DNA from: Petrimonas sp. IBARAKI | GTDB taxonomy: Bacteria > Bacteroidota > Bacteroidia > Bacteroidales > Dysgonomonadaceae | Direction of reading: 5' to 3' | NCBI GenBank assembly: GCA_002356435.2 | Contig: AP018040.2 | Coordinates: 1,426,001-1,490,000, forward strand | Length of the DNA: 64,000 bases | In this document: piece after piece, positions 43,659 to 57,375 of the stretch | How positions within the stretch are numbered: the first letter of the stretch is position 1 | Layout of the letters: every line of letters begins with the position of its first letter | Notes under the pieces: model-generated | Seen by the model: only the letters and a program-made list of their open reading frames with translations | What the model was told of the DNA's origin: nothing | Database searches by the model: none | Translations under genes and position numbers: made by a program

Positions 43659-44585
43659 TCATTCAAACAGCTTAATCGTATAATCCAAAAGCTCGATTCC
43701 GCCGGATTTCCCGTGTCCGACTATAATTTTTTTTACTTCTGGATACTTCATCTTTACTTTTCTTACTGTATTCGGCCACTCTTCTACATTTGCTTCCGCA
43801 AGATTACCTTTCCCCGCTCCTGCTTCTTTTATTAAACAACCCCCAAACATAATATCTTCCAGGGGGAAATAAGCAATAATGTTATCGCAGGAATGACCTT
43901 CTCCCAGAAAATCAACATACACTTCTTCGTTGCCGACTTTCAATTCAAAATGTTCATCAAACCCGTGCTTCGGCATAGTAGAACCATTTTCTTTCAGTAC
44001 TTGTATCGTTCTGTTGTAGGCGTAAGAAATAATGTCCTGTCTGTGAAATTCCTCCAGGCCTCCCAAATTGTCGATATGATAATGCGTTGGAACAACCGCT
44101 ATAATTTTGCATTTCAACGATTGTGTTAACCAGTCAATCAGCTCGCGAGATGTTTCATTGTCTGTCGGTGTATCGAAAACAACAGCTTCATTGTTGTTCA
44201 CAATAATCATTCCGTTGCACGAAATTTTCTCGAAGTTCCCAAAATCAAGAAATGAAATATGCTGATATACATGCTCCGAAACCTGATTGATCATCAAAGA
44301 CGCTGACCTGTATGCCCTGTTCTCCGTTGTTCGATCTATGTTGACATTGCCATGAGCTATAGAGTGAGTTCCATCCGGATTTACAATTATGTTGCCATGA
44401 ACGGTAGAGTGCGTTCCGTTTGGATTTACAATTACATTGCCATGAACTGTAGAGTGAGTCCCGTCCGGATTTACAATTACGTTGCCATGAACAGTAGAAT
44501 GCGTTCCGTCCGGATTTACTACAACTGTCTGTCCTACCACATCTGTCACAAATACAATACAACAAATCATCAATAAAATTTTCAT
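43659..44585 (-). CDS. Subclass B1 metallo-beta-lactamase with N-terminal tandem repeats
   Basis: The protein has 308 residues from the ATG at 44585. A signal peptide (KILLMICCIVFVTDVVGQ) is followed by four 15-residue repeats (consensus VIVNPDGTHSTVHGN) and then a full MBL domain. All B1 zinc ligands are visible: THYHIDNLGG (H116, H118, D120), GEGHSCDN (H196), FGGCLIKEAG (C221) and VGHGKSGG (H263), by standard B1 numbering. Periplasmic carbapenem-type beta-lactam hydrolysis is expected by family, but activity is not shown. The repeat linker is unusual. A long in-frame extension to 44801 carries a truncated DHFR-family fragment; I treat it as accidental. Confidence 0.85.
   Translation of the reverse strand: MKILLMICCIVFVTDVVGQTVVVNPDGTHSTVHGNVIVNPDGTHSTVHGNVIVNPNGTHSTVHGNIIVNPDGTHSIAHGNVNIDRTTENRAYRSASLMINQVSEHVYQHISFLDFGNFEKISCNGMIIVNNNEAVVFDTPTDNETSRELIDWLTQSLKCKIIAVVPTHYHIDNLGGLEEFHRQDIISYAYNRTIQVLKENGSTMPKHGFDEHFELKVGNEEVYVDFLGEGHSCDNIIAYFPLEDIMFGGCLIKEAGAGKGNLAEANVEEWPNTVRKVKMKYPEVKKIIVGHGKSGGIELLDYTIKLFE
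44347..44526 (-). repeat. Four 45-base tandem repeats inside the B1 MBL gene
   Basis: Exact 45-base periodicity (units at 44347, 44392, 44437 and 44482) encodes the 15-residue NPDGTHS-VHGN units. The units differ mostly by single bases. The number is a multiple of three per unit, so copy-number change would keep the frame. It is not CRISPR: no spacers and fully coding. Confidence 0.95.
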
Positions 44586-44801
44586 ATTTCTTCCTCTAGG
44601 CCTTGACTTGCTAATTTTGCACTTTTCCAGCACGGTTCGCCAAAACTCCATAAGCTGGTAGGTTATCCTTCCGTATAACGCTGTGTCAGCACTTCTCAAG
44701 AGGTCAGCGTAATGCTGATGTATTTCATCGTCAGGGATACCTGAGGTATGGTCACAAAACCCGTCAAGCGTCATATTGATTGCTGCAATTACTTTTTTCA
44801 T
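44586..44801 (-). pseudogene. Truncated DHFR-family (RibD C-terminal-like) gene fragment
   Basis: The open frame gives about 58 residues of a RibD C-terminal/dihydrofolate-reductase-like protein: KKVIAAINMTLDGFCDHTSG, then RSADTALYGRITYQLMEFW. After EFWRTVLE the homology stops and the sequence runs into the MBL gene (KCKISKSRPRGRN). The remaining two thirds of the family are missing. It is most likely a relic left when the MBL gene was joined here. Confidence 0.7.
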
Positions 44802-44847
44802 AATTTTTTTTGTCAGTCTGTTTTGTGAATCGTCCTACAATGACTAG

Positions 44848-44867
44848 TAACGGTTGTTAGTGGCTGG
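44848..44867 (-). repeat. Cassette-type element A (collapsed)
   Basis: On the plus strand TAACGG is followed after one base by TGTTAGTGGCTGG. The same outer motifs bound the full-length elements D and E, but here the long palindromic core is absent. It lies just after the 3' end of the alcohol dehydrogenase gene. Confidence 0.5.
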
Positions 44868-44875
44868 TGTTCTTA

Positions 44876-45841
44876 TCATTCATGTATCTTTAAAATAACA
44901 TTACCTGTTTTTTGCCCCGATTCAACGTATCTGTAAGCATCCACAATTTGGCCTAACGTATAAAATCTGTCTATTACAGGCTTGAATTCACCTTTTTCAA
45001 CAAGCTCTTTCAAAAATATTATATCTTGCTTGGTGATAGACGGAATTGGAAACAAAAGTCTTTTACCTCCCCAAAGTGGTGTGGTCAATGCAAATAATAT
45101 ATTTTCTGCGTTTTTCCCAAATTCCGTTGAGATGTATATTCCTTTTTCAGTTAATAAAGGTTTGCACTTACCAAATGAACTTTTTCCCACTGCGTCAAAG
45201 ATGAAAGCAAACTTATCTTCTGTCTTTGTAAAATCCTGTGTCTGATAATCAATGACTGTGTCTGCACCGAGAGATCTCACTAGATCTACGTTTTTTGTAT
45301 TACAGACAGCAGTTACTATTGCTCCAAAGTGTTTTAATAATTGTACGGCTGCAGAACCGATAGCCCCCGTTGCTCCGTAGACTAGAACTTTTTGTCCGCG
45401 TTCTACTTTTGCTGCCCGAATATTTACTAAGGCATAATGAGATCCTTCCGTAATAGCTGCCGCTTCATCAAAACTCATATTCTCCGGCATGTTTATAACC
45501 GCATCGTTTTCAGCGATAGTCAGATATTCTCCGTGTCCACCAAAGGTTTTATCATTGAAGCCAAAAACTTTATCTCCATTCCTGAATGCAGTTACATATT
45601 TCCCAACTTCTTCAACAACACCCGAAAACTCACAACCTAGTATTTTGTGTTTTGGTCGAAATAGTCCGCTCCAAAATCTTGAAATAAAATATTCAGCACT
45701 ACGGAATCCCGAATCGGTGCGGTTAACTGTTGACGAATATACCTTAAGCAATATTTCATTGTCCCTCGGTGAAGGCCTGGCGACTTCCGTTAATCTGGCA
45801 ACTTCCGGTGGGCCGTATTTTGAGTATATAATTGCTTTCAT
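44876..45841 (-). CDS. MDR-family NAD(P)-dependent alcohol dehydrogenase/quinone oxidoreductase
   Basis: The 321-residue protein has a GroES-like N-terminal domain (IYSKYGPPEVARLTEVARP, GCEFSGVVEEVGKYVTAF) and the Rossmann motif VLVYGATGAIGSAAVQLLKH, a common NADPH-linked pattern for the MDR superfamily. The classical structural-zinc Cys cluster is absent, so it is probably a zinc-independent quinone oxidoreductase. The substrate is unknown. It begins next to element B and ends next to element A, on the minus strand of the cassette-like region. Confidence 0.88.
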   Translation of the reverse strand: MKAIIYSKYGPPEVARLTEVARPSPRDNEILLKVYSSTVNRTDSGFRSAEYFISRFWSGLFRPKHKILGCEFSGVVEEVGKYVTAFRNGDKVFGFNDKTFGGHGEYLTIAENDAVINMPENMSFDEAAAITEGSHYALVNIRAAKVERGQKVLVYGATGAIGSAAVQLLKHFGAIVTAVCNTKNVDLVRSLGADTVIDYQTQDFTKTEDKFAFIFDAVGKSSFGKCKPLLTEKGIYISTEFGKNAENILFALTTPLWGGKRLLFPIPSITKQDIIFLKELVEKGEFKPVIDRFYTLGQIVDAYRYVESGQKTGNVILKIHE

Positions 45842-45883
45842 TTTCTATTTGATTTGTTGATTCTTGATCGTCTTGCCCCATAC

Positions 45884-45917
45884 TTACCACCAACATGCCA
45901 GATCGCGGAGTGCGTCC
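45884..45917 (-). repeat. Cassette-type element B (partial)
   Basis: Plus-strand ACTTACCACCAAC is nearly identical to ACTTGCCACCAAC at the left edge of element E. It is followed by ATGCCAGATCGCGGAG, part of a core. It falls between the serine hydrolase stop and the alcohol dehydrogenase ATG. Confidence 0.5.
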
Positions 45918-45921
45918 TTTT

Positions 45922-47244
45922 TTATTCTCTCGTGAATGTAAATTGTCCACCGCCTTGTTTTAGGATCATTGTGTTGTCTGTCGGACTGAATTCCAACACA
46001 ACTCCCGCCCGGTCAAATTTAAATTTATCTTTTTCGGTTGCTTCAAGTGGAAACGCTGATTGTCCTGTTGCTTGTGCTATTAACGTATTTCCGTCTTTTG
46101 TAATTGTAATTTTCAAAGCGATTTGCTTGGAAGCATAAACTCCCAGATACCCGTCCAATTCTTCCGGAGTCAAGTTGTAAGTTGTGAATACCGGAATTTC
46201 GTATGGCTTGTCGTAAACCGCACTTAAAACCGCAATAGAAATGTCATTGTTATTGAAGTTTGTTCCGTTTGAAGTTAAAGCGTACGAAATCTTGTCGTCG
46301 GTAAAATGCGAGTAGACCGAACTGAACCCATCAATTCCGCCTGTGTGTCCGAAGCCAATACTTTCGTAGAAAGGAATTGGAAACAAACCAATTCCGTAAC
46401 CGTCTTTTATGGTTTTCATTATCTCAAGACTTTCAGATTTCAAAAGTCTTCCGCCAAATAAAGCGTCTGCAAATTTTGTCAAGTCGCTTGGTGTAGAAAT
46501 AATAGCGCCAGCACCCAGCGGAATGGTATAATCTGTTTCATTTTCCACTTTCCAGGTCCCTGCGAAACTGTATGATTTACATTCGTTGTTGTTAGGATTG
46601 ATTTTGCCAAAAACATACGTGTTTGTCAAATTTATTGGTCTAACAATGTATTCTTGCAATAAGTCTGCATACGATTTTGCAAAAGTCGCTTCAAGAATGT
46701 AAGATAAGAGAACAAAGTTTGAATTGCTGTATTCTGCTTTACTGTCTGGTTTGAAGTCGCTACCGCCTTTTGAAATGATTTCCACCATTTCTTTTTCTGT
46801 CTTTGGTTGCGTGTTCCAGGTCAAGTAATCTTTGTCGTTTGTGAAATTGTGTATTCCGCTTCTATGACCTAGCAAATGCTTTACGGTAATTTCATCTGCG
46901 TTTATGATTGTTGGAAACCATTTGTCAATAGTTTGGTTCAGGCATACCTTTTTTTCTTCAACCGCTTTTAAAACCAAAACGGCTGTGAACGATTTAGAAA
47001 TGGAGCCAATTCTGTATTTAGAATTTTCAGTTGCTTTGGTGTTGTTTTCAACGTCTGCGAGACCAACGGTTTTTGAATAAATTATTTCTCCGTTTTTTGA
47101 AACGGCGACGCTTCCCATAAACTTATTGTTTTGTTCAAGTGCGTTGAAATAGTTATCTAATTTAGTTTTGTCAAAACCGGTTTGAGCAATTCCTATTTGA
47201 CCTAATGTCAGAACTAGAGCTGTTGTTAAGATTGTTTTTGTCAT
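45922..47244 (-). CDS. Serine hydrolase, beta-lactamase-related (class C/DD-peptidase type)
   Basis: The 440-residue protein has a signal peptide (LTTALVLTLGQIGIAQ). Active-site motifs are SISKSFTAVLV (SxxK with catalytic Ser), YSNSNFVLL (YxN) and GHTGGIDGFS (H/KTG position). A C-terminal lipocalin-like/DUF3471-type domain follows (LDGYLGVYASKQIALKITIT). The family includes class C beta-lactamases, D-aminopeptidases and esterases, and true lactamase activity cannot be claimed. It lies in the cassette-like array between elements C and B. Confidence 0.87.
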   Translation of the reverse strand: MTKTILTTALVLTLGQIGIAQTGFDKTKLDNYFNALEQNNKFMGSVAVSKNGEIIYSKTVGLADVENNTKATENSKYRIGSISKSFTAVLVLKAVEEKKVCLNQTIDKWFPTIINADEITVKHLLGHRSGIHNFTNDKDYLTWNTQPKTEKEMVEIISKGGSDFKPDSKAEYSNSNFVLLSYILEATFAKSYADLLQEYIVRPINLTNTYVFGKINPNNNECKSYSFAGTWKVENETDYTIPLGAGAIISTPSDLTKFADALFGGRLLKSESLEIMKTIKDGYGIGLFPIPFYESIGFGHTGGIDGFSSVYSHFTDDKISYALTSNGTNFNNNDISIAVLSAVYDKPYEIPVFTTYNLTPEELDGYLGVYASKQIALKITITKDGNTLIAQATGQSAFPLEATEKDKFKFDRAGVVLEFSPTDNTMILKQGGGQFTFTRE

Positions 47245-47283
47245 TTTTGTCTTGTTAATGTTGTCGTTTACGGGTCGCCTTTA

Positions 47284-47302
47284 AATAACGTTTAGTGTAT
47301 GG
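47284..47302 (-). repeat. Cassette-type element C (collapsed, weak)
   Basis: Plus-strand TAACGTTTAGTGTATGG resembles a shortened form of element A (TAACGG, then TAGTGGCTGG). It lies between the serine hydrolase ATG and the tail-tube stop codon. Support is modest. Confidence 0.3.
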
Positions 47303-47331
47303 ATAGTAACCGATTAAGGAATTCATCCCTG

Positions 47332-47793
47332 TCAAGTTGCAAGCTCTGTCGTTAATCCTTCGTGCGCTAACTCTAACGTCTCTATTGTAACTTCATTTGC
47401 ATCCGATTTTAAATCCGGACTTGAAATTTTAGTAGGCCAAGCATTTGTCAACCTCCAAGTCATAATAGGTTTTCCACCTTCATCCAACAACTGGATTGTT
47501 ACTGTTTCTCTTTTAATGGTATTCATTTTAATGGCATCATACCAATTAAAGAAATTATTGTTTTTCACTAAAACGCCTTTCTTAAGAATAATGTTTCCTC
47601 CTTTAGTTAATCCAGGCATTTTAATCGTTGAGAATTGTTTGCCATCTCCATGTCTGTATTCCATGGGTTGTGTATCTGTTCCTAATCCGGAAATTTCTTG
47701 AAACGATATTGTCTTGTCTTGTGAACCGAATTTAACTGTAAAGTAAAACTTGGGTAATGGCCATACATTATTATCTTGAGTTTCTCCTGTCAT
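47332..47793 (-). CDS. Orphan phage/eCIS tail-tube protein (gp19-like)
   Basis: The 153-residue protein has the conserved phage tail-tube fold of the TIGR02241/T4 gp19-like family: FYFTVKFGSQDKTISFQEIS, GLGTDTQPMEYRHGD, the MPGLTKGGNIILKKGVL strand, and the end TIETLELAHEGLT. In extracellular contractile injection systems such a protein forms the inner tube. No sheath, baseplate, ATPase or spike gene is in the window. It starts 4 bases after the methyltransferase gene and is on the minus strand between elements D and C, as part of a two-gene cassette. Confidence 0.85.
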   Translation of the reverse strand: MTGETQDNNVWPLPKFYFTVKFGSQDKTISFQEISGLGTDTQPMEYRHGDGKQFSTIKMPGLTKGGNIILKKGVLVKNNNFFNWYDAIKMNTIKRETVTIQLLDEGGKPIMTWRLTNAWPTKISSPDLKSDANEVTIETLELAHEGLTTELAT

Positions 47794-47797
47794 AATA

Positions 47798-48709
47798 TTA
47801 TAGATTTGATTTTTTTATTATCGTCGTTTTAAAATCATATCCTTCAATCTCGTATTTTTTTAAGTCATACTGTTTATTGTCAAGATATTTCTCAATAAAC
47901 GGTAAATCCGGTGCATAGTGAAAGCTGCCATCGATTTTCAATGAGTTCAGAATATTCATATAAGTTTTGGCATATTCGATATAGTTGCCGTCTTCTCTCA
48001 AATTATGATGATTAAAATGATTGGAAAATCCCAGGTTACTGACTACGGTTCCCCATTTGTCTGTTCCGTAATCGTATTCCAGCCAATCTGATGTTATTAA
48101 ATTTGAGGTTGAAAACTTAAATCTGTCAATTCCATAAGCTTCAATTTTTTGATTTCTAAAATAATCTACCAGATATCCATTAATTCCACAACCTATATCC
48201 AAAACCGGTTGTAATAAATGTTTAATATCAACTTGTAAAATTTTAAGTTGCAATTTAGGGGTATATTCAGAGCAAACAACTGGACTTATTTTCTCGTTGT
48301 CATCTTTATATAATTTTTCTGCGAAAGGATTATTTTCTTTAAGCCAGAATTTTAGCTTTTCGTAATGTTCTTTTGAAATGTTGTCAATTGAATATGCTCT
48401 TGTCTGAAGGGCTTCAAATAAATTAGAATATATTTGTCTTAAGTTGTTTATAGCTTTTAAGTCAAACGAATAGTATTGATTTACTCTGCAAAACTCTTCG
48501 ATGGCTTTATCTTTTGCATAATCAATTAAATACTCTTTAGAATGAGGGGTTAGTTTGTCAATATTCGAAATAGCTTTTACTGTTTCATTGGCAAATTGAA
48601 ATATCTCCAGATTATCAAGAAAAATGTTTTTACCTTGATTAAATCCTATTTGTTTATCAATATTTTCGGTAAATCTGTCTGTTGGCATTGGTTTTTTTGT
48701 ATATGGCAT
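47798..48709 (-). CDS. SAM-dependent methyltransferase (unassigned)
   Basis: The protein has 303 residues from the ATG at 48709. The frame extends to 48745, but those codons lie inside the palindromic element D. The SAM-binding motif I is VLDIGCGINGYLVDYF (central), followed by YGIDRF and a helical N-terminal half of about 150 residues with no family I recognise. The substrate is unknown. Its start codon coincides with the end of element D (CCGTTATG). It is co-transcribed with the orphan tail-tube gene (4-base gap). Confidence 0.7.
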   Translation of the reverse strand: MPYTKKPMPTDRFTENIDKQIGFNQGKNIFLDNLEIFQFANETVKAISNIDKLTPHSKEYLIDYAKDKAIEEFCRVNQYYSFDLKAINNLRQIYSNLFEALQTRAYSIDNISKEHYEKLKFWLKENNPFAEKLYKDDNEKISPVVCSEYTPKLQLKILQVDIKHLLQPVLDIGCGINGYLVDYFRNQKIEAYGIDRFKFSTSNLITSDWLEYDYGTDKWGTVVSNLGFSNHFNHHNLREDGNYIEYAKTYMNILNSLKIDGSFHYAPDLPFIEKYLDNKQYDLKKYEIEGYDFKTTIIKKSNL

Positions 48710-48840
48710 AACGGTGCGGGGCTTGGCGATGGTGGCACTTAGCATACAAGTTTGATAAATGCACCAGCTTTAAACTTCACAGAAATGTTTAATAGAAGCC
48801 GTTATCTGCCACTGTCGCCAAACCCTTGTTGGTGGCTGTT
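48709..48840 (-). repeat. Cassette-type palindromic element D (full-length)
   Basis: The inverted arms GGGGCTTGGCGATGGTGGCA (48718-48737) and the complement of 48807-48826 match at 16 of 20 positions, with a 69-base loop. Outer motifs are plus-strand ATAACGG (48709-48714) and TTGTTGGTGGCTG (48827-48839). On the minus strand it starts 8 bases after the DprA-like stop and ends with the methyltransferase ATG, so it lies exactly between two gene units. Confidence 0.75.
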
Positions 48841-48848
48841 TTTCTTTT

Positions 48849-50003
48849 TTAAAAAGAAAGTGTTCCTTGTTTTTCTCGTTTTGGTTCTCCTTTTAATTTG
48901 TATAAAGTAGTTCGTTTCACTTTCTCGTTTTCTATAAAGTCTAACTTCTTTAAATAATTATTCAACTTTTGAGTAGTCCAAGTTAGGTTTAACTTTGTTA
49001 GAAGTTCCTTAGCAGTCAACGAGCGTCCATTAAATGCTGAACGGATTTTGTCATTTAGGTTATCCAATTCATTTGGTTCTTGAACGACTGGGATTTGGTC
49101 AGACAAAATTGTGTCGTAAGCCTTTACTAATTCATTTCCGTTGAAATCAACAGCAACTGCACCTCTTTGTATAAGAATGTTGTTTGCATTTTTCTCTGTT
49201 AGTTCTGGTTTACGAACATAAATTTTTCGTCCTTTTCGTAAGCCATCAATTACACCTGACCAAGTTCCGCCTTTTTCAGAAGATTCTGCTACATAAATTT
49301 CATCGACAAGTCCGTAGATAATAGAATTTCTTGCCATTGCTAATTCTACTTTCCAAGGTGCTTTTGGGAAAAAGGTACTTAAAACTAATACGTCTCCGTC
49401 AATGATTTGTTTGTAGTAATTTTTGAAACCCGAAGTAAATGTCATTATGCCTTGCGGAAGAACGATAATACTTTGTCCTTTGTAGTTGATGGCTGAATCT
49501 AATGCTTGTATGTCTACCCCTTTTGCAAAACCGCTTACAACTACTTTATATTCTTGACTTGCGATTTTTGCAATGTTGTCAGTAAATTTTAAAGCAATAT
49601 CGGAAGCGGTTCGTGAACCTACAATTGCAATAGACTTTTCTTCAAGTATCTTTTTATTACCTTTTATGTATAAAACTGCAGGAGAATAAGTAGCTTTTAA
49701 ATTCGATTTGAGTTTTTTGGAATATTCTGGTGAAGTAATTGGAATAATTTCAAAACCTTGGTTAAAAAGAGATTCTGCTAAAAAGGCATTGCTTCCTAAT
49801 TCCGATTTTGCTTTTCGTAAATCAAAAATATGATTTTCGTCTAATTGATAAATGTTTTTCCAATCACTTTCAGATAACCCGAAAAAATCGACAATAGAAA
49901 TTTGGTTCTCGTGATAGAACTTTATAATGAGGTCATTTATTTTTTTATGTCCCCATTTTGGCAAATGTGCCAACGCTATCCAATATGCTACTTCGTTTGT
50001 CAT
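48849..50003 (-). CDS. DprA-like protein, PsyrA/RqlI-type partner of the RecQ-PRTase
   Basis: The 384-residue protein has a DprA/Smf Rossmann domain (IVGSRTASDIALKFTDNIAK, SGFAKGVDIQALDSAI and IVLPQGIMTF) and a C-terminal winged helix (KELLTKLNLTWTTQKLNNYL). The N-terminal helical region resembles a SAM/HhH domain (PKWGHKKINDLIIKF). It follows the RecQ-PRTase gene with a 5-base gap. A DprA-like antitoxin beside a RecQ-like helicase with a PRTase domain matches the described PsyrTA (RqlHI) phage-defence system. I assign it on domain and context, not on sequence identity. An AT hairpin lies at the stop codon. Confidence 0.8.
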   Translation of the reverse strand: MTNEVAYWIALAHLPKWGHKKINDLIIKFYHENQISIVDFFGLSESDWKNIYQLDENHIFDLRKAKSELGSNAFLAESLFNQGFEIIPITSPEYSKKLKSNLKATYSPAVLYIKGNKKILEEKSIAIVGSRTASDIALKFTDNIAKIASQEYKVVVSGFAKGVDIQALDSAINYKGQSIIVLPQGIMTFTSGFKNYYKQIIDGDVLVLSTFFPKAPWKVELAMARNSIIYGLVDEIYVAESSEKGGTWSGVIDGLRKGRKIYVRKPELTEKNANNILIQRGAVAVDFNGNELVKAYDTILSDQIPVVQEPNELDNLNDKIRSAFNGRSLTAKELLTKLNLTWTTQKLNNYLKKLDFIENEKVKRTTLYKLKGEPKREKQGTLSF

Positions 50004-50008
50004 ACTAT

Positions 50009-52024
50009 TTACACAATATCTCCACCAACTGTTCTTGCTATCACAATCGGTGCTATTTTTAATGCTCCAAAATTAGTCAAAATTTTTCCAATTTCCTTTA
50101 TTGTAGCCCCACTATCAAATATATCGTCAATCAGTAAAACACTCTTTCCTCTTATTTCATCTGGTTTTGTATAAGTAAACGCTCCACTTACATTTTCTGT
50201 TTTAAGGTATCCGTTTTCAAATATTTTTTGTTCTTTCGTCTGTTTGTTTTTTTGCAGATTGTGTGAAATTGGAAACTTTAATACTTGAGCAACTTTTGTT
50301 GCAAAGTTTTTCACTAAATCGCCTGATGATGTTGGAGGAACGTAAACGACCAAATCAAATTTTTCTTGTCCGAACTTTTTGCGAAATGCTTTTAAGATTA
50401 AAGACAAAAGAAAATCGGGAAAAAATCCACCATTTTCATACTTTGAACGATGAATTGCAGTACCAACATTTGAAACACCATAATAAGATGCAGCTACACC
50501 ATTAACAATATTTGAACCTTTGCTTTCAACTTCCAATATTGGGAAGTAGTTTTCTCTAAATGCTTGTAGCTTTTCTGTCCATTTAGCTGTTACGCTTACG
50601 ACAATTTTTTCCTCCCCTGTATTATCGCAATTAGTAAAAGTATGATTAGTATTGTCTCCTAAATAGTCGCATAGAAATTTCATTCTTGAGCCGGTTGTTT
50701 CTACATAACCAATCATGTTTTCAAGATCATTCAGTTTCGCATCGCGTAGTTCTTCAAATGCCTTTGTATTCAATGGTTGTGAATTACGAACAAATTCATA
50801 TTTCTTACTTTTTCCAATAATCACTTCTCGGATAATCCCTTGCTCAATTAAGTCTGCTTTAATTACTCTTATTTGTGTTTGTTTTAAGTTTGTTCGTTTC
50901 ATTAATTCTCGTTCGCCAAGCAACTCATTTTTTACAGCATTGATAACTCTTTCGTATTTTTTTATTGCCGGCCTGCCACCTTCAATAAACGCTTCTGGCA
51001 ATTTTTTGTCTTCAGGATTGTAAAATAAAATCACACAAGTCGGCTTACCGTCTCTACCTGCACGACCAATTTCTTGATAATAGTGTATTGGCGATTGTGG
51101 AATTTGAGTGTGAATAATGAAACGAATGTCGGGTTTATCAATTCCCATTCCTAATGCATTTGTAGAAATGATACATTTCCATTTATTATTCATCATTCCA
51201 TCTTCAATGGCGATTCTTGAATCAGCGTCAAGTCCTGCGTTGTATGCGGTTGAAGAAATTCCCAAGTGTTCAAACCATTTTGAATAGATTTCTGTATCAA
51301 CTCTTGTACCTGTATATAAAATTCCCGAACCCGAAATATTATTTAGGTTTTCACCTAACCAAATCAATTTTTCATCTTCTGAATTCACTTTAACTACGAA
51401 TAATTTAAAGTTGTCTCTCATCAGGTTTCCCCTGATTGTTGTGATGTTGTTGCCAATTTGTTGAGCAATGTCTAATTCAACTCTTTTGGTTGCAGTAGCT
51501 GTTGTCGCAAGAACCGGAAGCCCTGTCGGTAAAAGTTTTACAAGATTGATAATTCTTTTGAAAGCTGGTCGGAAGTCGTGTCCCCAGACAGAAATACAAT
51601 GCGCTTCATCCACAACAACCATTGATAATTTCATTTGTTGTGTTGCTTCAATCCATTCGCTGTTTTCTTGTCGTTCGGGTGCTATGTATAAAATTTTTAT
51701 TTTGCCTTGTTTAGCTTCATGTATGATTTGGCTGTTTTTTTCTGGTGTTTGTTCACTATTGATACACTCTGCTGAAATTCCAAGTGAAGTTAGTTTCTTT
51801 ACTTGGTCTCGCATTAAAGCAATAAGTGGGGAGAAAATAACCGTTATCCCTTGAAAAACAGAAGCAGGAAACTGAAAGCACAACGATTTTCCAAAACCTG
51901 TCTTTTCAATTAGCAATACTTTTTCACCATTGAGAATCTTCTCAATAACCTGCCATTGTTCATCGTGAAACTTTGGTAGTTTAAAGGCTCGTTGTAGAAT
52001 TTGTTCTGCTTCTTGTCTTGTCAT
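50009..52024 (-). CDS. RecQ-like helicase fused to a ComF-type phosphoribosyltransferase (PsyrT/RqlH-like)
   Basis: From the ATG at 52024 the protein has 671 residues; a TTG five codons earlier is also open. The N-terminal SF2 helicase has motif I EKTGFGKSLCFQFPA, DEAHCISVWGHDFRPAF (DEAH box), TTATATKRVELDIA and the C-terminal GRAGRDGKPTCVILFY. The last about 150 residues are a ComF-type PRTase ending with VLLIDDIFDSGATIKEIG, the PRPP-binding loop. The pairing with the DprA-like gene is the hallmark of PsyrTA/RqlHI anti-phage toxin-antitoxin loci. It lies between elements E and D. Confidence 0.85.
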   Translation of the reverse strand: MTRQEAEQILQRAFKLPKFHDEQWQVIEKILNGEKVLLIEKTGFGKSLCFQFPASVFQGITVIFSPLIALMRDQVKKLTSLGISAECINSEQTPEKNSQIIHEAKQGKIKILYIAPERQENSEWIEATQQMKLSMVVVDEAHCISVWGHDFRPAFKRIINLVKLLPTGLPVLATTATATKRVELDIAQQIGNNITTIRGNLMRDNFKLFVVKVNSEDEKLIWLGENLNNISGSGILYTGTRVDTEIYSKWFEHLGISSTAYNAGLDADSRIAIEDGMMNNKWKCIISTNALGMGIDKPDIRFIIHTQIPQSPIHYYQEIGRAGRDGKPTCVILFYNPEDKKLPEAFIEGGRPAIKKYERVINAVKNELLGERELMKRTNLKQTQIRVIKADLIEQGIIREVIIGKSKKYEFVRNSQPLNTKAFEELRDAKLNDLENMIGYVETTGSRMKFLCDYLGDNTNHTFTNCDNTGEEKIVVSVTAKWTEKLQAFRENYFPILEVESKGSNIVNGVAASYYGVSNVGTAIHRSKYENGGFFPDFLLSLILKAFRKKFGQEKFDLVVYVPPTSSGDLVKNFATKVAQVLKFPISHNLQKNKQTKEQKIFENGYLKTENVSGAFTYTKPDEIRGKSVLLIDDIFDSGATIKEIGKILTNFGALKIAPIVIARTVGGDIV

Positions 52025-52081
52025 TTTTGGGTCCTTCAAATTTTCTGTTCAGCTTCTTTTAGCGGTGTCGCCTTAGACTTG

Positions 52082-52222
52082 CCACCAACGGATTATGGTA
52101 TGAGGTCGTGGCGGATTTACGAGAGTAAATCAGTCCGACCGAGCAGGACGCTGGCACGAGATTCGATGCAATCGAATCGAGCCGACCCCCGCCATGCCTT
52201 ATACCATGTGTTAGCCGCTGGG
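52082..52222 (-). repeat. Cassette-type palindromic element E (full-length, multi-hairpin)
   Basis: Arms ATGGTATGAGGTCGTGGCGG (52095-52114) and the complement of 52189-52207 pair over about 20 bases with one gap. Inside lie ATTTAC/GTAAAT (52115-52130) and GATTCGAT/ATCGAATC (52160-52178), so the strand could fold into a branched hairpin. Outer motifs are GCCACCAACGG on the left and TGTTAGCCGCTGGG on the right. The stop codon of the ImmA/IrrE gene (52211-52213) lies inside the right motif. Confidence 0.8.
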
Positions 52223-53488
52223 TTTTTGTATGTTTCTCATTATATGTCCAATCGAAATATTTGTTGTGTCTTGCAAGAAGTTTAATCCAATCAATCTGTA
52301 TTTTGCGACTTCTTTAGAGACTCCAAAAACTACTTGTAATTCACTTAGAAAGCTAAATACTAACCTTTGATTTACTGGTTGGTTATCCAAATACAAATAA
52401 CCTTTATTAATATTTTCCTTTTTAAAATATTCTTTAACGTATCTTTCCAAATGATGTTTTGGCATTAGCATTGAACTCGCAAACATGTTTGCTTGTATTT
52501 CTAATCGCTTGTTGTTAGAAAATGAATCACTTTGAAACAAAGAAATAGATTCATCTTTATCTGTTTTGGTATCAAGATATTGTCTTAAGATTTCATTGTG
52601 AAGAACTAAGTGCCCTATCTCATGTGCAAAAGTAAAACGGAATCTATTGATATCTGATTTCAATGAATTTGAAATGTGTATTTTTATTGGATTGAATTCT
52701 ATTTTGCCTAAAATACTGTTAGGCAAGTCCTTGTCAAGATAAAACTTCGCATTATATATGTCTTTTACCCTATTACTCACTTTTTCAATATCCAAGCATG
52801 AGTTTTCATAAAATGAGTAATCAAATAACTCATTTATTGTGATTTCTATATATTCACTCGATCTGAATGGAATATTGATATACTTAGGGATATTGTAGAA
52901 ATTGTCAATTATTCCAAAATTTAAAAGTAAATCAGGAAGCCTGTTATATCCTTTGTTCTCAAATTGTGCAATGAAATTTGTTGTGGTGAGAATATCGTTG
53001 GTTAATGATTCGTCAATTACTTCGGATTCAATATTTGTTTGTTTCTTATCCTTTCTATGATTAATCCAATCAATTTCATTTTCCAGATTCAATCGTCCAA
53101 TTGCAATTTTTGTGTTTCTTGCAAATCCTAATGTTGCTTTTTGAAACGGTGATTTTGAAATTAGAATGCCTTTTGTGTTATGTTCTCCGATTTCATTTAA
53201 CACAGAACCTAGCTCTCTTATGTCATTTACGGGAATACTGCTTTTATAGTCTTTACATTCAATTATTGTAAGCAATGAGTATTTTTCTGCACCTTTTTGA
53301 TAAGTTTCTATTGATATGTCAACTTCAATATCCGTTTCTGTTTTTGAGGAAGGGTATTTCTTTTTCCAAAAGATTTTACTGTTTTTTCCGCTTACATAAA
53401 ATTCGTCATTTTCAAGTAAGTCTTTTATGATATTAAAGACTTTCTTCTCAAATGAATCTCCTTTTTCTGTTGTTGATTTTTTCCTCAT
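52211..53488 (-). CDS. Mrr-like nuclease fused to an ImmA/IrrE metallopeptidase
   Basis: The 425-residue protein has an N-terminal PD-(D/E)xK-type nuclease segment: ETDIEVDISIETYQ, then TIIECKDYKSSIPVNDIREL (E-x-K core) and GILISKSPFQKAT. The C-terminal half has the zinc peptidase motif FTFAHEIGHLVLHNEIL and RLEIQANMFASSMLMPK, matching ImmA/IrrE/DUF955. ImmA-type proteases cut phage-type repressors. A joined nuclease is unusual. Its stop codon is inside element E. It resembles no named defence protein that I can assign with confidence. Confidence 0.75.
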   Translation of the reverse strand: MRKKSTTEKGDSFEKKVFNIIKDLLENDEFYVSGKNSKIFWKKKYPSSKTETDIEVDISIETYQKGAEKYSLLTIIECKDYKSSIPVNDIRELGSVLNEIGEHNTKGILISKSPFQKATLGFARNTKIAIGRLNLENEIDWINHRKDKKQTNIESEVIDESLTNDILTTTNFIAQFENKGYNRLPDLLLNFGIIDNFYNIPKYINIPFRSSEYIEITINELFDYSFYENSCLDIEKVSNRVKDIYNAKFYLDKDLPNSILGKIEFNPIKIHISNSLKSDINRFRFTFAHEIGHLVLHNEILRQYLDTKTDKDESISLFQSDSFSNNKRLEIQANMFASSMLMPKHHLERYVKEYFKKENINKGYLYLDNQPVNQRLVFSFLSELQVVFGVSKEVAKYRLIGLNFLQDTTNISIGHIMRNIQKPSG

Positions 53489-53521
53489 TAAAATTGTTGC
53501 AGTTACTCTTTTTCAAACCTT

Positions 53522-53563
53522 GCGGCTAACATCTTAGTGTTTTATTCGCCGTTATAGCCCACC
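53522..53563 (+). repeat. Cassette-type element F (short, opposite orientation)
   Basis: Plus-strand GCGGCTAACA (53522-53531) and GCCGTTATAGCCCACC (53548-53563) match, on the opposite strand, the outer motifs of element E (right motif) and element D (left motif). It lies just upstream of the ImmA/IrrE ATG. It has no long core. Confidence 0.45.
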
Positions 53564-53865
53564 AAAGTTATTGAAAAGAAGTTGATTCACAAATTTTCAC
53601 AAAGATTAATTTAATATGATATCAATAATGGCAAATAAAACTAGTTGAACGGAACCTATTGCTATGGGAAAAGTATTTATGGGAGGTTGGCGTTTTTGCT
53701 TGATTTGGGTTAATAAGTTCCTATAAAAGCTCTTTTTCAAGTACATGATTGTTTTTTAATCTTAGATCGTCCACGTAAATGCATAATTCTCCCTGTATGA
53801 TTTTGCTCATCATCTATACGGGTTTTGTCATTAAATGGAAAGAACGCTTTTGTTAATTATCAGAA
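53564..53865. other. AT-rich gap, left flank of the IS91-family element
   Basis: About 300 bases hold no supported gene. The region should contain the IS91 terminus, but I see no clear terminal hairpin or conserved end. It may also include the true edge of the cassette-like array. Confidence 0.4.
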
Positions 53866-55026
53866 TTATCCTGGTTCCATGTGTAAAACATTGCATGCCG
53901 GGCTTACCATTAATTTCCCTTTTTTGCACTTTGCGCAAATAATCGGGTCCTTACCGGATATTATTTGTAAAACTTCCATTGCAAGCAGTCCTGTAAGTCT
54001 TGAAAAATAGGTTGGGGTGGGCAACAGTGAATAGCATAAATTGAGCTTTGTTTTCCTTTTGCAGATAGCCATGAATCCGAAGTAACGTATTTTGCTAAAT
54101 CCACATGGAAGGACATGCTGCATGAATCGCCGTATAAACTCCATAGTTTCCAGGGTCATTGTTTTTCTTGCACCTCCTGCCTTGTTATCCCTATAGCTGA
54201 AAGTAACCTTATCATCTTTGTAACCTACCATACGGTGGTTGCTAATTGCCACACGGTGTGTGTAGTTGCCCAGATAACGGACCAGGTTATCGGGTGAAGC
54301 AAACGGTTTTTCTGCATAAACCACCCATTTTTTAGCGTAGCATTTTGCTTTTATGGTCTGAAAATCGGGTGTATCATCCGGAAGTTTGATCTCCTTCCTG
54401 AATACTGACTCCTGCAGTAGCCGACATAAAATACCCCTGAAAACGGTGCTGAGCACTTTTACCGGGACAAAAAACTTTTTAGCACTTGGTACCCATTCCA
54501 TTCCATCATCGGATACTCCTCCGGCAGGAACAATGGTATGAATATGCGGGTGATAGGTCATTGTTTGACCCCAGGTGTGTAACAGGGCAACAGCTCCGGC
54601 CTCTGCGCCTAAATAATGCGTGTTTCTGGCACATTGCATCAGTGTTTGTCCGGCTGCTTTGAAGAGCAAGGAATAAGCAATCCTCTGATTGATATAAAAC
54701 AGTTTGTGCAGACACGCGGGTATTGTGAAAACAATGTGAAAATGTTTTACCGGGGGGAGATCAGCCGCAAGTTTATCCACCCATTGCATCCGTTTTATGT
54801 ACTGGCATTTGGGACAATTGCGATTACGACACGAGTTATAGGATTGAACCTTGTGACCGCAATGATTGCAACTCAATGTATGCCCGCCAAGTTCTGAAGT
54901 ACGACAGGCAATAATATCTTCCATTGCTTTTTGCTGTACGGCACAAAGTGTGTTCTCGGTCAGGAAATCGTGTCTCTTATCCCGGAAAATGTCAGCAATC
55001 TCTATGATTTGCTTTTTATTCTCCAT
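53866..55026 (-). CDS. IS91-family transposase
   Basis: The 386-residue protein has an N-terminal Cys zinc-binding region (LSCNHCGHKVQSYNSCRNRN plus CPKCQ, typical of IS91/ISCR transposases), the HPHIHTIVPAGGVSDDG metal motif and the late YLGNYTHRVAISNHR motif expected to hold a catalytic Tyr. A C-terminal Cys pair (CAKCKKGKLMV) closes it. IS91 transposases work by rolling-circle transposition and can mobilise flanking DNA. The 9-base spaced tyrosine recombinase upstream forms one unit with it. Confidence 0.93.
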   Translation of the reverse strand: MENKKQIIEIADIFRDKRHDFLTENTLCAVQQKAMEDIIACRTSELGGHTLSCNHCGHKVQSYNSCRNRNCPKCQYIKRMQWVDKLAADLPPVKHFHIVFTIPACLHKLFYINQRIAYSLLFKAAGQTLMQCARNTHYLGAEAGAVALLHTWGQTMTYHPHIHTIVPAGGVSDDGMEWVPSAKKFFVPVKVLSTVFRGILCRLLQESVFRKEIKLPDDTPDFQTIKAKCYAKKWVVYAEKPFASPDNLVRYLGNYTHRVAISNHRMVGYKDDKVTFSYRDNKAGGARKTMTLETMEFIRRFMQHVLPCGFSKIRYFGFMAICKRKTKLNLCYSLLPTPTYFSRLTGLLAMEVLQIISGKDPIICAKCKKGKLMVSPACNVLHMEPG

Positions 55027-55035
55027 AATGATAGA

Positions 55036-55887
55036 TCAGAAAAGTGTTATATCATCCAATGGAGAAGTAAACTCGCTGGTTTTGATATGGGCTACATGCA
55101 GGTAAACAGCTGTGGTCTTCAATGAAGTATGACCCATGAACTGCTGTATCTGTCTCAGGTTTACACCGGCTTCCAATAAATGGGTGGCAAAACAATGACG
55201 CAATGTATGAAACGATACCTCTTTTTTTATTCCGGCATTTTTAGCACTGTTTTTCACAATATACTCTACAGTTCTTTCCGACAAGGGTTGTCCTTTACGC
55301 CCCATCGGTTCGAATAGATAAGTGCTTGGTCGTTCCAATTTATAATACATTCGCAGCACTTCGAGTGTTTTCCACGAAAGAATGGTATATCTGTCCTTCT
55401 TCCCCTTTCCTTGCACGATACGTACTTGCATACGCTGTGAATCAATGTCGCGTGGTTTGATTTGTAATACTTCCATCCTGCGAAGTCCCGCAGAATAAGT
55501 AAGCATTAGAATGGCTCTGTGCTTTATGTTGTTTGTTACCGTGATCATGCGTTGCACTTCCTGCAATGACAAAACTATGGGGAGTTTTTTCTCCTTGCGA
55601 GGCCGTCTTACATGGAACTCTTCCCATTTGCGATGGCAGACGTCTACATGAAAAATCTTGAAAGCACTTATAAGCTGGTTTACCGTGGAAACGGAAATTC
55701 CTTTTTTGGTAATCAGGTAATGTAACCAGTTTTTAAAGTCTTCGGTGGTAACCTCATACAGCGATTTACCCAAGTCTTTTTCAAGTTTTATGAGCAGGCT
55801 GCAATACGTCTTAATTGTACGGGGACTGTAATTGCGAATTTGCATCTCCTTGATCTGCAAACTCTCGAATGTTTTGTTTAGATTCAT
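55036..55887 (-). CDS. Tyrosine recombinase (IS91-associated, XerC/D-like)
   Basis: The 283-residue protein has an N-terminal SAM-like domain (TIKTYCSLLIKLEKDLGKSL) and the catalytic set: Arg in SAGLRRMEVLQIK, Lys in GKGKKDRY, HTLRHCFATHLLEAG (H-x-x-R), GH and Tyr in TAVYLHVA. The TSPLDDI tail resembles the end of IntI integrases, but the IntI-specific insertion before the HxxR box is absent, so I do not call it an integron integrase. IS91-type elements with a neighbouring Y-recombinase gene are known. The start is ATG at 55887. Confidence 0.88.
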   Translation of the reverse strand: MNLNKTFESLQIKEMQIRNYSPRTIKTYCSLLIKLEKDLGKSLYEVTTEDFKNWLHYLITKKGISVSTVNQLISAFKIFHVDVCHRKWEEFHVRRPRKEKKLPIVLSLQEVQRMITVTNNIKHRAILMLTYSAGLRRMEVLQIKPRDIDSQRMQVRIVQGKGKKDRYTILSWKTLEVLRMYYKLERPSTYLFEPMGRKGQPLSERTVEYIVKNSAKNAGIKKEVSFHTLRHCFATHLLEAGVNLRQIQQFMGHTSLKTTAVYLHVAHIKTSEFTSPLDDITLF

Positions 55888-56232
55888 AATGATAATTAAT
55901 TGAAGTTATTACGCTTCAAAATTATCACTATTCTAATTTACCGACAGGTTTAGTTCAACGTATTATTTACGCAATATATATACAACTTTCGTAAATATCC
56001 GATTTATAACATTCGTATATCCCCATGTAATCGGGGGTGTTTACGAAAGTTTGTTGAATCTGGATAAATAATGGTGGAAACAGGTGTGTTGCATAAGTAT
56101 CAGTATTTTGAATCGCAAACTTATATAAAAAAGTTTGAATTTTATACGCCGCCCGATAAAAATCGGGGCCGTAACTGTTCTACTTGTAATTAACGTGTTC
56201 TAAGACACAAAGTATAATTTAAAATTATCATT
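55888..56232 (+). other. Structured non-coding flank of the IS110-family element
   Basis: No gene. The stem ACTTTCGTAAA (55985-55995) / TTTACGAAAGT (56040-56050) encloses a CCCC/GGGG hairpin. Further stems are CAAACTT/AAGTTTG (56116-56137) and CCCGAT/ATCGGG (56152-56167). In IS110-group elements this left non-coding end encodes the bridge RNA that pairs with target and donor. The folded segment is a candidate for that RNA. Confidence 0.5.
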
Positions 56233-57375
56233 ATGAGAACAGTTAGCGGCCTCGACGTTCACAAAGATAGCATATTTATGTGCATCCTGGACGAGCAAGG
56301 CAAAAAAACAGAAGAAAAATTCGGAGTTACCACTCGCGAAATAAAGCGGATGGCCGTTGTAATGCACTCCCGTTTTGTGAGTGATGTATGTATGGAGAGT
56401 ACGGGCATTTATTGGATTCCCCTCTGGCGTTTATTGGAATCAGATTTCAAGCTTCATCTGGTCAACCCCCAGTTTCTTAAACAATTGCCCGGTCGCAAGA
56501 GCGATGTGAAAGACGCGCAGTGGATTGCCACGGCCCTGCTCAAGGAATTAGTCAGGGACAGCTTTGTTCCTGACGGCAACATTCAACGCCTGCGCCAATA
56601 CGGACGGCGCATCAACGAGATAAACAAGGACACGGTTCGTTGTGAACAGCGTATCGACATGCTTCTTCAGCGCTGCAACGTGCGTTTGAGCAATTATGTC
56701 TCGCGCACCAGAAGCAGGAGCTACCGCAAAGTGGTGGATTCCCTGATAAGGGGTGAGACATCCGTGGATGAACTTATCCGGCTTATCCACGGGCGCACGG
56801 TTAACCGACACGGAAAATCGGCGGTGCATGATGCGTTGGAGGGCTGCATCGTTGAAAGCGACAGGGATTTGCTTGGGCAATACACGCAGATGCTTGACAT
56901 GTATCAATCACAAAAACAGCAATGCCACGAGGCGATGGTTCAAATGTGTATGAACCTTTATCGGGAAGCATTTTTGTTTCTGCTCGGTATTCCGGGTGTG
57001 AAGGAGCTCTCGGCAGCTATCATCATTTCTGAAATAGGCGACAATATGGAACTTTTTGCTACCGCAGCAGCCCTTGTGTCATGGGCAGGACTCAGACCGC
57101 GTAACGATGAAAGCGCAGGAAAAATTAAGAGCCGCCAAATAACACACGGGAACAAGTATCTGAGAAAAGCTTTGATAGAATGTGCATGGAGTGCCGCCCG
57201 AACAAGAGGATCCGTGTTTTACTGCCGTTTTTGGCATTTAAAAGGCATGAAGAAACACCATAACGCCATTATCGTAGCCGTTGCCCGGGAGATGCTTGCC
57301 GTTATCTGGAAACTGCTTTCCAGACATGAGAATTTTGATGAAACGTATCATCTGAAGAAAAAAACTGCTTCGTAG
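56233..57375 (+). CDS. IS110-family transposase
   Basis: The 380-residue protein begins TVSGLDVHKDSIFMCILDEQ, the DEDD RuvC-like domain of IS110-type recombinases, with CMESTGIYWIPLWRLLESDF and NPQFLKQLPGRKSDVKDAQW. The C-terminal Transposase_20 region has GIPGVKELSAAIIISEIGDN, SWAGLRPRNDESAGKIKSRQ and a late Ser (CAWSAARTRGSVFY). Such enzymes use a bridge RNA to choose target and donor. Complete and uninterrupted, so it could be active. The left flank is the structured RNA candidate. Confidence 0.92.
   Translation: MRTVSGLDVHKDSIFMCILDEQGKKTEEKFGVTTREIKRMAVVMHSRFVSDVCMESTGIYWIPLWRLLESDFKLHLVNPQFLKQLPGRKSDVKDAQWIATALLKELVRDSFVPDGNIQRLRQYGRRINEINKDTVRCEQRIDMLLQRCNVRLSNYVSRTRSRSYRKVVDSLIRGETSVDELIRLIHGRTVNRHGKSAVHDALEGCIVESDRDLLGQYTQMLDMYQSQKQQCHEAMVQMCMNLYREAFLFLLGIPGVKELSAAIIISEIGDNMELFATAAALVSWAGLRPRNDESAGKIKSRQITHGNKYLRKALIECAWSAARTRGSVFYCRFWHLKGMKKHHNAIIVAVAREMLAVIWKLLSRHENFDETYHLKKKTAS

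Follow-up and report, generated by a model that had tools for sequence, protein, structure and literature searches.

The DNA analysed here, termed the window, is a stretch of 64,000 nucleotides from Petrimonas sp. IBARAKI (phylum Bacteroidota; contig AP018040.2, positions 1,426,001 to 1,490,000). It carries an array of minus-strand genes in which two palindromic elements, designated D and E, lie at gene ends. Comparative analysis indicates that this array is very probably part of a Bacteroidota-specific type of integron, the integrase of which lacks the domain inserted in IntI. The original prediction, made from the window alone, was of an integron-like cassette array on one strand, perhaps representing a different cassette system of Bacteroidota. 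The single-strand arrangement of the genes was confirmed, and the prediction gains support from an insert-less integrase and an attI at the array head, from similar arrays elsewhere in the phylum and from cassettes shared between genera that stop at a GTT core.

Palindromic elements and their distribution

Elements D and E (Table 1) are palindromes on the minus strand, as predicted, but imperfect ones, bounded by YAAC and, at the opposite end, by CCGTTR. Read in gene sense, D is CACCAACA...ACCGTTATG and E is GGCTAACA...CCGTTGG; both have long complementary arms, the right arm of E being longer by a single base. As single strands, D and E fold modestly better than shuffled sequences do (z of -2.4 and -3.1, respectively). 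Within the taxonomic family of the source organism, a BLAST search with element E gave one clear relative (in genome G047, E=5e-12), other matches being short or at chance level; sequence search alone therefore misses the family.

A starting set of 12 elements was obtained by comparing the Petrimonas genome (G000) with a genome of the same species (G049) and with relatives. A sequence-only model of these 12 (R1) had matches in 50 of the 101 genomes from the same taxonomic family. With a structural model (R2), 155 of 297 genomes sampled evenly across the phylum Bacteroidota gave matches, in 89 of 141 genera. The covariance model search that had been proposed with the original prediction thus recovered the family, hairpins of ~130 nt, phylum-wide, and beside many unrelated genes rather than one or two. 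A third model (R3) was built from elements in loci of other Bacteroidota families, D and E being excluded; these elements were found using R1, which included D and E, so that the independence of R3 is good but not complete. R3 ranks D and E as the top two matches in the window (E=2.2e-11 and 8.8e-10), and with R2 they score 55.3 and 61.8 bits.

R2 gave no matches in Cupriavidus, Caulobacter, Bradyrhizobium, Treponema and Fibrobacterota genomes, jointly more than 35 Mb. Matches outside the Bacteroidota were to one Peregrinibacteria genome, one 'Bacillota' metagenome-assembled genome, which may be mis-binned, and one Shewanella plasmid. The Peregrinibacteria genome (candidate phyla radiation; G404, locus L181) contains a related integrase and four family elements, by transfer or mis-binning.

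Three further elements (A, B and C) had been proposed as collapsed members in the window. In a full unfiltered model search of the window, C scored 12.2 bits and A 9.7 bits, neither significant on its own, and these two are at most decayed remnants; G049 has element A too. Element B gave no match in this search and was rejected as a family member. The prediction that a start codon lies within an outer motif held for D, the core of which (GTTATG) includes the ATG of the methyltransferase-like gene, and the G049 counterpart of this gene likewise starts at an ATG in the core.

A covarying hairpin and its better-folding strand

RNAalifold found no structure in a MAFFT alignment of 12 sequences, because the two arms slip against one another; the helix is visible only with about 100 elements aligned. 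A structure-blind alignment of 110 elements, 102 of them distinct, contains one nested helix of 22 pairs, with standard pairs in 80.7% of cells. Its covariation score is 0.432, against 0.112±0.007 in shuffled alignments (0/500 reaching it); sliding the partner columns gives no more than 0.068. The same helix is present in elements from other families (86.2% paired, covariation 0.311).

The core pairs AAC/GTT are kept in 99-100% of elements, and the adjoining Y and R are invariant where aligned. The full attC boxes RYYYAAC and GTTRRRY are not conserved: the left outer positions are mainly C-G-C and the right end beyond GTTR is variable. Two positions of the helix are conserved as A·C on the gene-sense (top) strand, in 86% and 56% of elements, and correspond to T·G on the opposite one; counting every pair of the top strand, there are 186 A·C and 55 G·T cells. 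As A·C mismatches above are T·G wobbles below, the bottom strand folds better, being the more stable strand for 215 of 276 elements, with a mean advantage of 1.8 kcal/mol. This strand asymmetry is of the kind known from attC, here reached through wobbles, and the wobbles could thereby select the strand that is recombined.

Arrays of co-oriented units

Where two successive elements are separated by less than 4 kb, they point the same way in all 133 cases, the median spacing being 1.1 kb. In 158 of 196 elements, the YAAC side marks the end of a gene of 80 codons or more, compared with 22 of 196 in the mirrored control. Together with cassettes common to several genera (see below), this is the arrangement expected of an integron, a one-orientation array of mobile cassettes, each a gene with its attC-type site.

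The largest arrays are in Flavobacterium and are of superintegron size. Of the 51 elements of Flavobacterium difficile, 43 lie within 36 kb at a median spacing of 722 bp, and there are 81 model matches in Flavobacterium enshiense. The longest open reading frame (ORF) is on the sense strand in 28 of 42 units of the F. difficile array; 13 units with ORFs in the 'opposite' sense resemble gene-less cassettes of low complexity. About a dozen units of this array (L241, L242) have no real gene and contain low-complexity repeats, some nearly identical to one another.

The head integrase and attI

No IntI-type integrase had been noted with the original prediction. This is correct for the window itself, but a 280-aa tyrosine recombinase is encoded 15 kb past its right end (C1:1504785-1505627 of G000), divergent from the arrays. 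The same gene heads arrays in G049, G041, G052, G062, G074 and G087; in G053, G092 and G060 this position is taken by a relative of 356 aa. A site-specific tyrosine integrase gene thus lies at the array end in G000 and in nine other arrays. The F. difficile superintegron is headed by an integrase of ~350 aa. In Flavobacterium and others the integrase gene points towards the array.

The best family match of the 280-aa integrase is NCBIfam NF040815, 'site-specific tyrosine recombinase/integron integrase' (236 bits). Against the integron integrase model TIGR02249 the whole protein scores 232.6 bits, below the curated cut-off of 265 bits, which is reached in none of the 101 genomes of the source taxonomic family. 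When some 40 sequences were aligned, the segment that spans 68 residues in IntI1 was 26-27 residues long in the array integrases. Alignment with IntI4 (2A3V) skips IntI4 residues 180 to 244, where the query has about 20 residues. The additional domain of some 40 residues that IntI carries in its catalytic part is therefore absent from all the array integrases examined. The 30 Bacteroidota sequences form one clade (94/90) in a tree that also includes four IntI and three Xer proteins, and the Bacteroidota array integrases, IntI and the recombinases linked to IS91-type elements are jointly split from Xer (100/100). The branching on the IntI side is compatible both with descent from IntI by loss and with an older form.

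About 190 bp upstream of the integrase gene are conserved between strains and stop at ACGTT, beyond which the sequences differ; across this boundary mean identity falls from 70% in the 25 nt before to 36% after. In some strains an IS91-type unit follows directly. A conserved stretch ending at ACGTT and followed by differing first cassettes is the picture of cassette insertion at an attI adjoining the integrase gene. Over 148 nt, which include the start of the insertion sequence (IS) unit, the attI copy at the head of the window array shares 96% identity with the attI adjoining the integrase at G000:1504785.

In the phylum sample, with integrases called at E<=1e-60, integrase and elements were found together in 82 genomes, integrase only in 12, elements only in 73 and neither in 130. 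The two thus co-occur, with elements in 82 of the 94 genomes that have an integrase and in 73 of the 203 others (p=1.6e-17, uncorrected for relatedness).

Exchange of cassettes

The predicted variation in gene content between strains is evident at the same locus of G000 and G049. The two arrays are common up to element D (window 48724), beyond which G000 carries PsyrTA and G049 a different set of defence-like genes, and they differ again beside the integrase. The alternative cargo of G049 (L022 12378-18675) comprises PDC-S32-like, AbiJ-like and ubiquitin-like E1/JAB defence genes between family elements. Cassette-sized matches between genera, at 90% identity or more, stop at GTT or at most 8 nt from it in about seven cases.

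Cargo and other features of the window

The cassette between E and D (48849-52039, minus strand) carries PsyrTA, a phage-defence toxin-antitoxin pair; the predicted RecQ/DprA defence pair is thus a known system. The methyltransferase-like gene that follows D had no match in a family search of the window proteins. The ORF combining a DHFR relic and a metallo-beta-lactamase (43659-44801) is a fusion resulting from a deletion of ~2.4 kb relative to G049, where the DHFR gene is intact, the metallo-beta-lactamase gene stands separately and a further gene is present.

Table 1. Sites, genes and mobile elements of the window (positions within the 64,000 nucleotides)
Feature	Position	Strand	Evidence or remarks
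DHFR-relic/metallo-beta-lactamase fusion ORF, alcohol dehydrogenase, serine hydrolase	43659-47244	minus	Pfam
Element A, stemless remnant	44847-44863	minus	CTAACAACCGTTA; after alcohol dehydrogenase gene
Element C, possible decayed site	47285-47393	minus	Loop motif TTGACAGG and CGTTA retained
Methyltransferase-like gene and gp19 tail-tube-like gene	47332-48745	minus	
Element D, attC-type recombination site	48708-48835	minus	CAAC...GTTA; 3' of PsyrA
PsyrA	48849-50003	minus	PADLOC 1.4e-75
PsyrT	50009-52039	minus	PADLOC 1.4e-268
Element E, attC-type recombination site	52085-52217	minus	YAAC...GTTG; 3' of ImmA-nuclease gene
ImmA/IrrE peptidase-like plus Mrr nuclease-like protein	52211-53488	minus	Pfam M78 1.4e-14, Mrr_cat 5.7e-8
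IS91-type unit: transposase (53866-55026) and tyrosine recombinase (55036-55887)	53527-55956	minus	Pfam Y2_Tnp, Phage_integrase
attI copy	55957-56020	minus	ACGAATGTT...ACGAAAGTT...GCGTAAATAATACGTT; head of window array
IS110-family transposase	56233-57375	plus	NF033542 5.6e-69; adjoins attI copy

The IS91-type unit is present in several copies in the genome; these start with GAACTAAACC directly after a GTT, mostly that of attI or attC-type sites. The unit ends in ...GATGTT, and a weak attC-like hairpin (15.3 bits) lies at its 3' end at 53526-53651. IS110/IS1111 elements that target attC are known from other bacteria.

Interpretation and alternatives

In the proposed mechanism, a tyrosine recombinase of the IntI/SPLD branch, of 280 aa here and ~350-380 aa elsewhere and without the IntI insert, would capture cassettes, each usually consisting of one gene and a terminal attC-type site of ~130 nt. 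The bottom strand of the site would fold into a hairpin of ~19 bp with the YAAC/GTTR core as its cap, and the two conserved T·G wobbles would make this strand the better-folding substrate, which would be single-stranded. The integrase would join the folded attC to the attI upstream of its own gene, with crossover at GTT, so that new cassettes would enter beside the integrase in one orientation; cassettes would later be exchanged between strains and genera.

Several observations weigh against this interpretation. The cassette chemistry ascribed to the Bacteroidota integrase is putative, being deduced from sequence. The extrahelical bases and L boxes of canonical attC are not evident, the alignment showing no consistent bulge, with wobbles instead. 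The window array has an attI copy, yet no integrase of its own beside it. The probability given for the co-occurrence of elements and integrase ignores the relatedness of the genomes, and the 73 genomes with elements and no integrase at the threshold, like the 12 with the reverse, are discordant; draft contigs and loss could account for both groups. The identity of G000 and G049 at D extends about 15 nt beyond the GTT core, so that ordinary homologous recombination could explain that one exchange.

Among the alternatives, the array could be moved by IS91-type units in place of the head integrase. Copies of the unit lie exactly at the GTT cores of attI and attC-type sites, the window copy immediately after the GTT of attI, and its tyrosine recombinase is 39% identical to the head integrase. 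However, such placement is in keeping with parasitism of the sites, and superintegrons such as that of F. difficile are headed by the ~350-aa integrase. Such a role is distinctly improbable, and the unit has the appearance of a cassette that moves by itself and lives as a parasite of these integrons.

Even less probable are three other explanations. The arrays could be decayed arrays of ordinary integrons, that is, clusters of attC sites lacking integron-integrases (CALIN), their IntI having been lost or acting elsewhere. IntI1 does recombine the veb1 attC, a member of the family (see below), if weakly, and elements without an integrase are found in many genomes. Yet all the head integrases examined lack the insert, attI is conserved beside this insert-less integrase, and none of the 101 genomes of the source taxonomic family has a protein above the IntI cut-off, which makes decay of this kind very unlikely. 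The elements could also be transposable repeats that settle behind genes, resembling miniature inverted-repeat transposable elements (MITEs) or repetitive extragenic palindromic sequences. They are palindromic, dispersed and numerous, as such repeats are, but their co-orientation within arrays is strict, there is mostly one sense-strand gene per unit, and they are linked to an integrase and to an attI with a fixed crossover. Moreover, the units held in common contain a gene and stop at GTT, whereas MITEs move alone, and membership of such a class was not borne out when tested; the probability of this reading is very small. It is equally hard to credit that the elements are RNA structures, either terminators or stabilisers of the 3' untranslated regions of defence genes: although they lie 3' of genes and their stem covaries, the conserved A·C positions would be mismatches in the transcript, the antisense strand folds better, the window has no match in Rfam, and the fixed YAAC/GTTR ends and the GTT shared with attI would go unexplained.

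Relation to known integrons

The preferred interpretation, a Bacteroidota integron type with an insert-less integrase, shares with the class 1-3 and sedentary chromosomal integrons an integrase gene, an adjoining attI, co-oriented cassettes ending in a folded YAAC...GTTR site, a crossover at GTT, a better-folding bottom strand and arrays that reach superintegron size. It differs from them in that the integrase lacks the IntI domain and occurs in two orientations relative to the array, and in that the outer core positions of the sites mismatch RYYYAAC/GTTRRRY, with conserved wobbles replacing clear extrahelical bases. The array integrases have the fold, the catalytic motifs and the absence of the insert in common with XerA, XerC and XerD, but are separated from these in the tree and head arrays.

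The claim that the insert is essential for integron function has been restated (PMC8138268). An earlier survey retained only integrases with the extra domain (PMC2426708), and IntegronFinder 2 reported one complete Bacteroidota integron, in Salinibacter (PMC9024848). Taken by itself, the window would be classed as a CALIN, but the Petrimonas genome does contain an integrase and an attI, of the type that surveys based on the IntI domain reject, and such surveys have probably missed the Bacteroidota type for this reason. No earlier description of it was found in the open-access PMC literature, preprints and subscription papers lying outside this search.

The match of R2 in the Shewanella plasmid is the attC of blaVEB-16 (84.2 bits, and 63.6 bits with R3). 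The aadA1 cassette in the same plasmid region is not matched, which indicates that R2 is not a general attC detector. The site was found in 40 plasmid records, nearly all with blaVEB annotated, and most matches stop at GTTA. The veb1 attC, from the class 1 integron cassette that encodes the VEB extended-spectrum beta-lactamase, is thus a member of the family by R2 and R3, and the family is not, as had been proposed, new in the strict sense. This site differs from the others in lying behind a resistance gene on proteobacterial plasmids. It is 133 bp long, its inner boxes are diverged, it has a single extrahelical base, and it is used poorly by IntI1, which recombines it at 4.4e-5, 50-fold below the aadB attC (PMC3518468).

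Relatives of VEB, with at most 56% identity, are encoded in 30 of the 297 Bacteroidota genomes. Among 20 Bacteroidota loci with VEB-like proteins that were checked for an adjoining element, one has an element upstream (L263:1217-1349). This element precedes a VEB-like beta-lactamase gene (54% identical) and its right core is degraded (CCGCTG). As the core is degraded and there is no element downstream of the gene at L263, the locus lends weak support only to the VEB link. A Bacteroidota origin of the blaVEB cassette would fit the membership of its attC in the family.

Integrons were previously thought to be nearly absent from the Bacteroidota. The present findings probably point to a second, phylum-wide and largely unseen integron type, in which the integrase would function without the 'essential' domain and the strand would be chosen by wobbles, and which would form a reservoir feeding cassettes, at least blaVEB, to class 1 integrons in pathogens. 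Provided that the type is active, about half of the sampled Bacteroidota genomes would have gene-capture sites, with cargo consisting partly of phage-defence genes, and the essentiality of the IntI insert would become open to direct test. The odd veb1 attC and its poor recombination would then be explained, the site having been made for another integrase.

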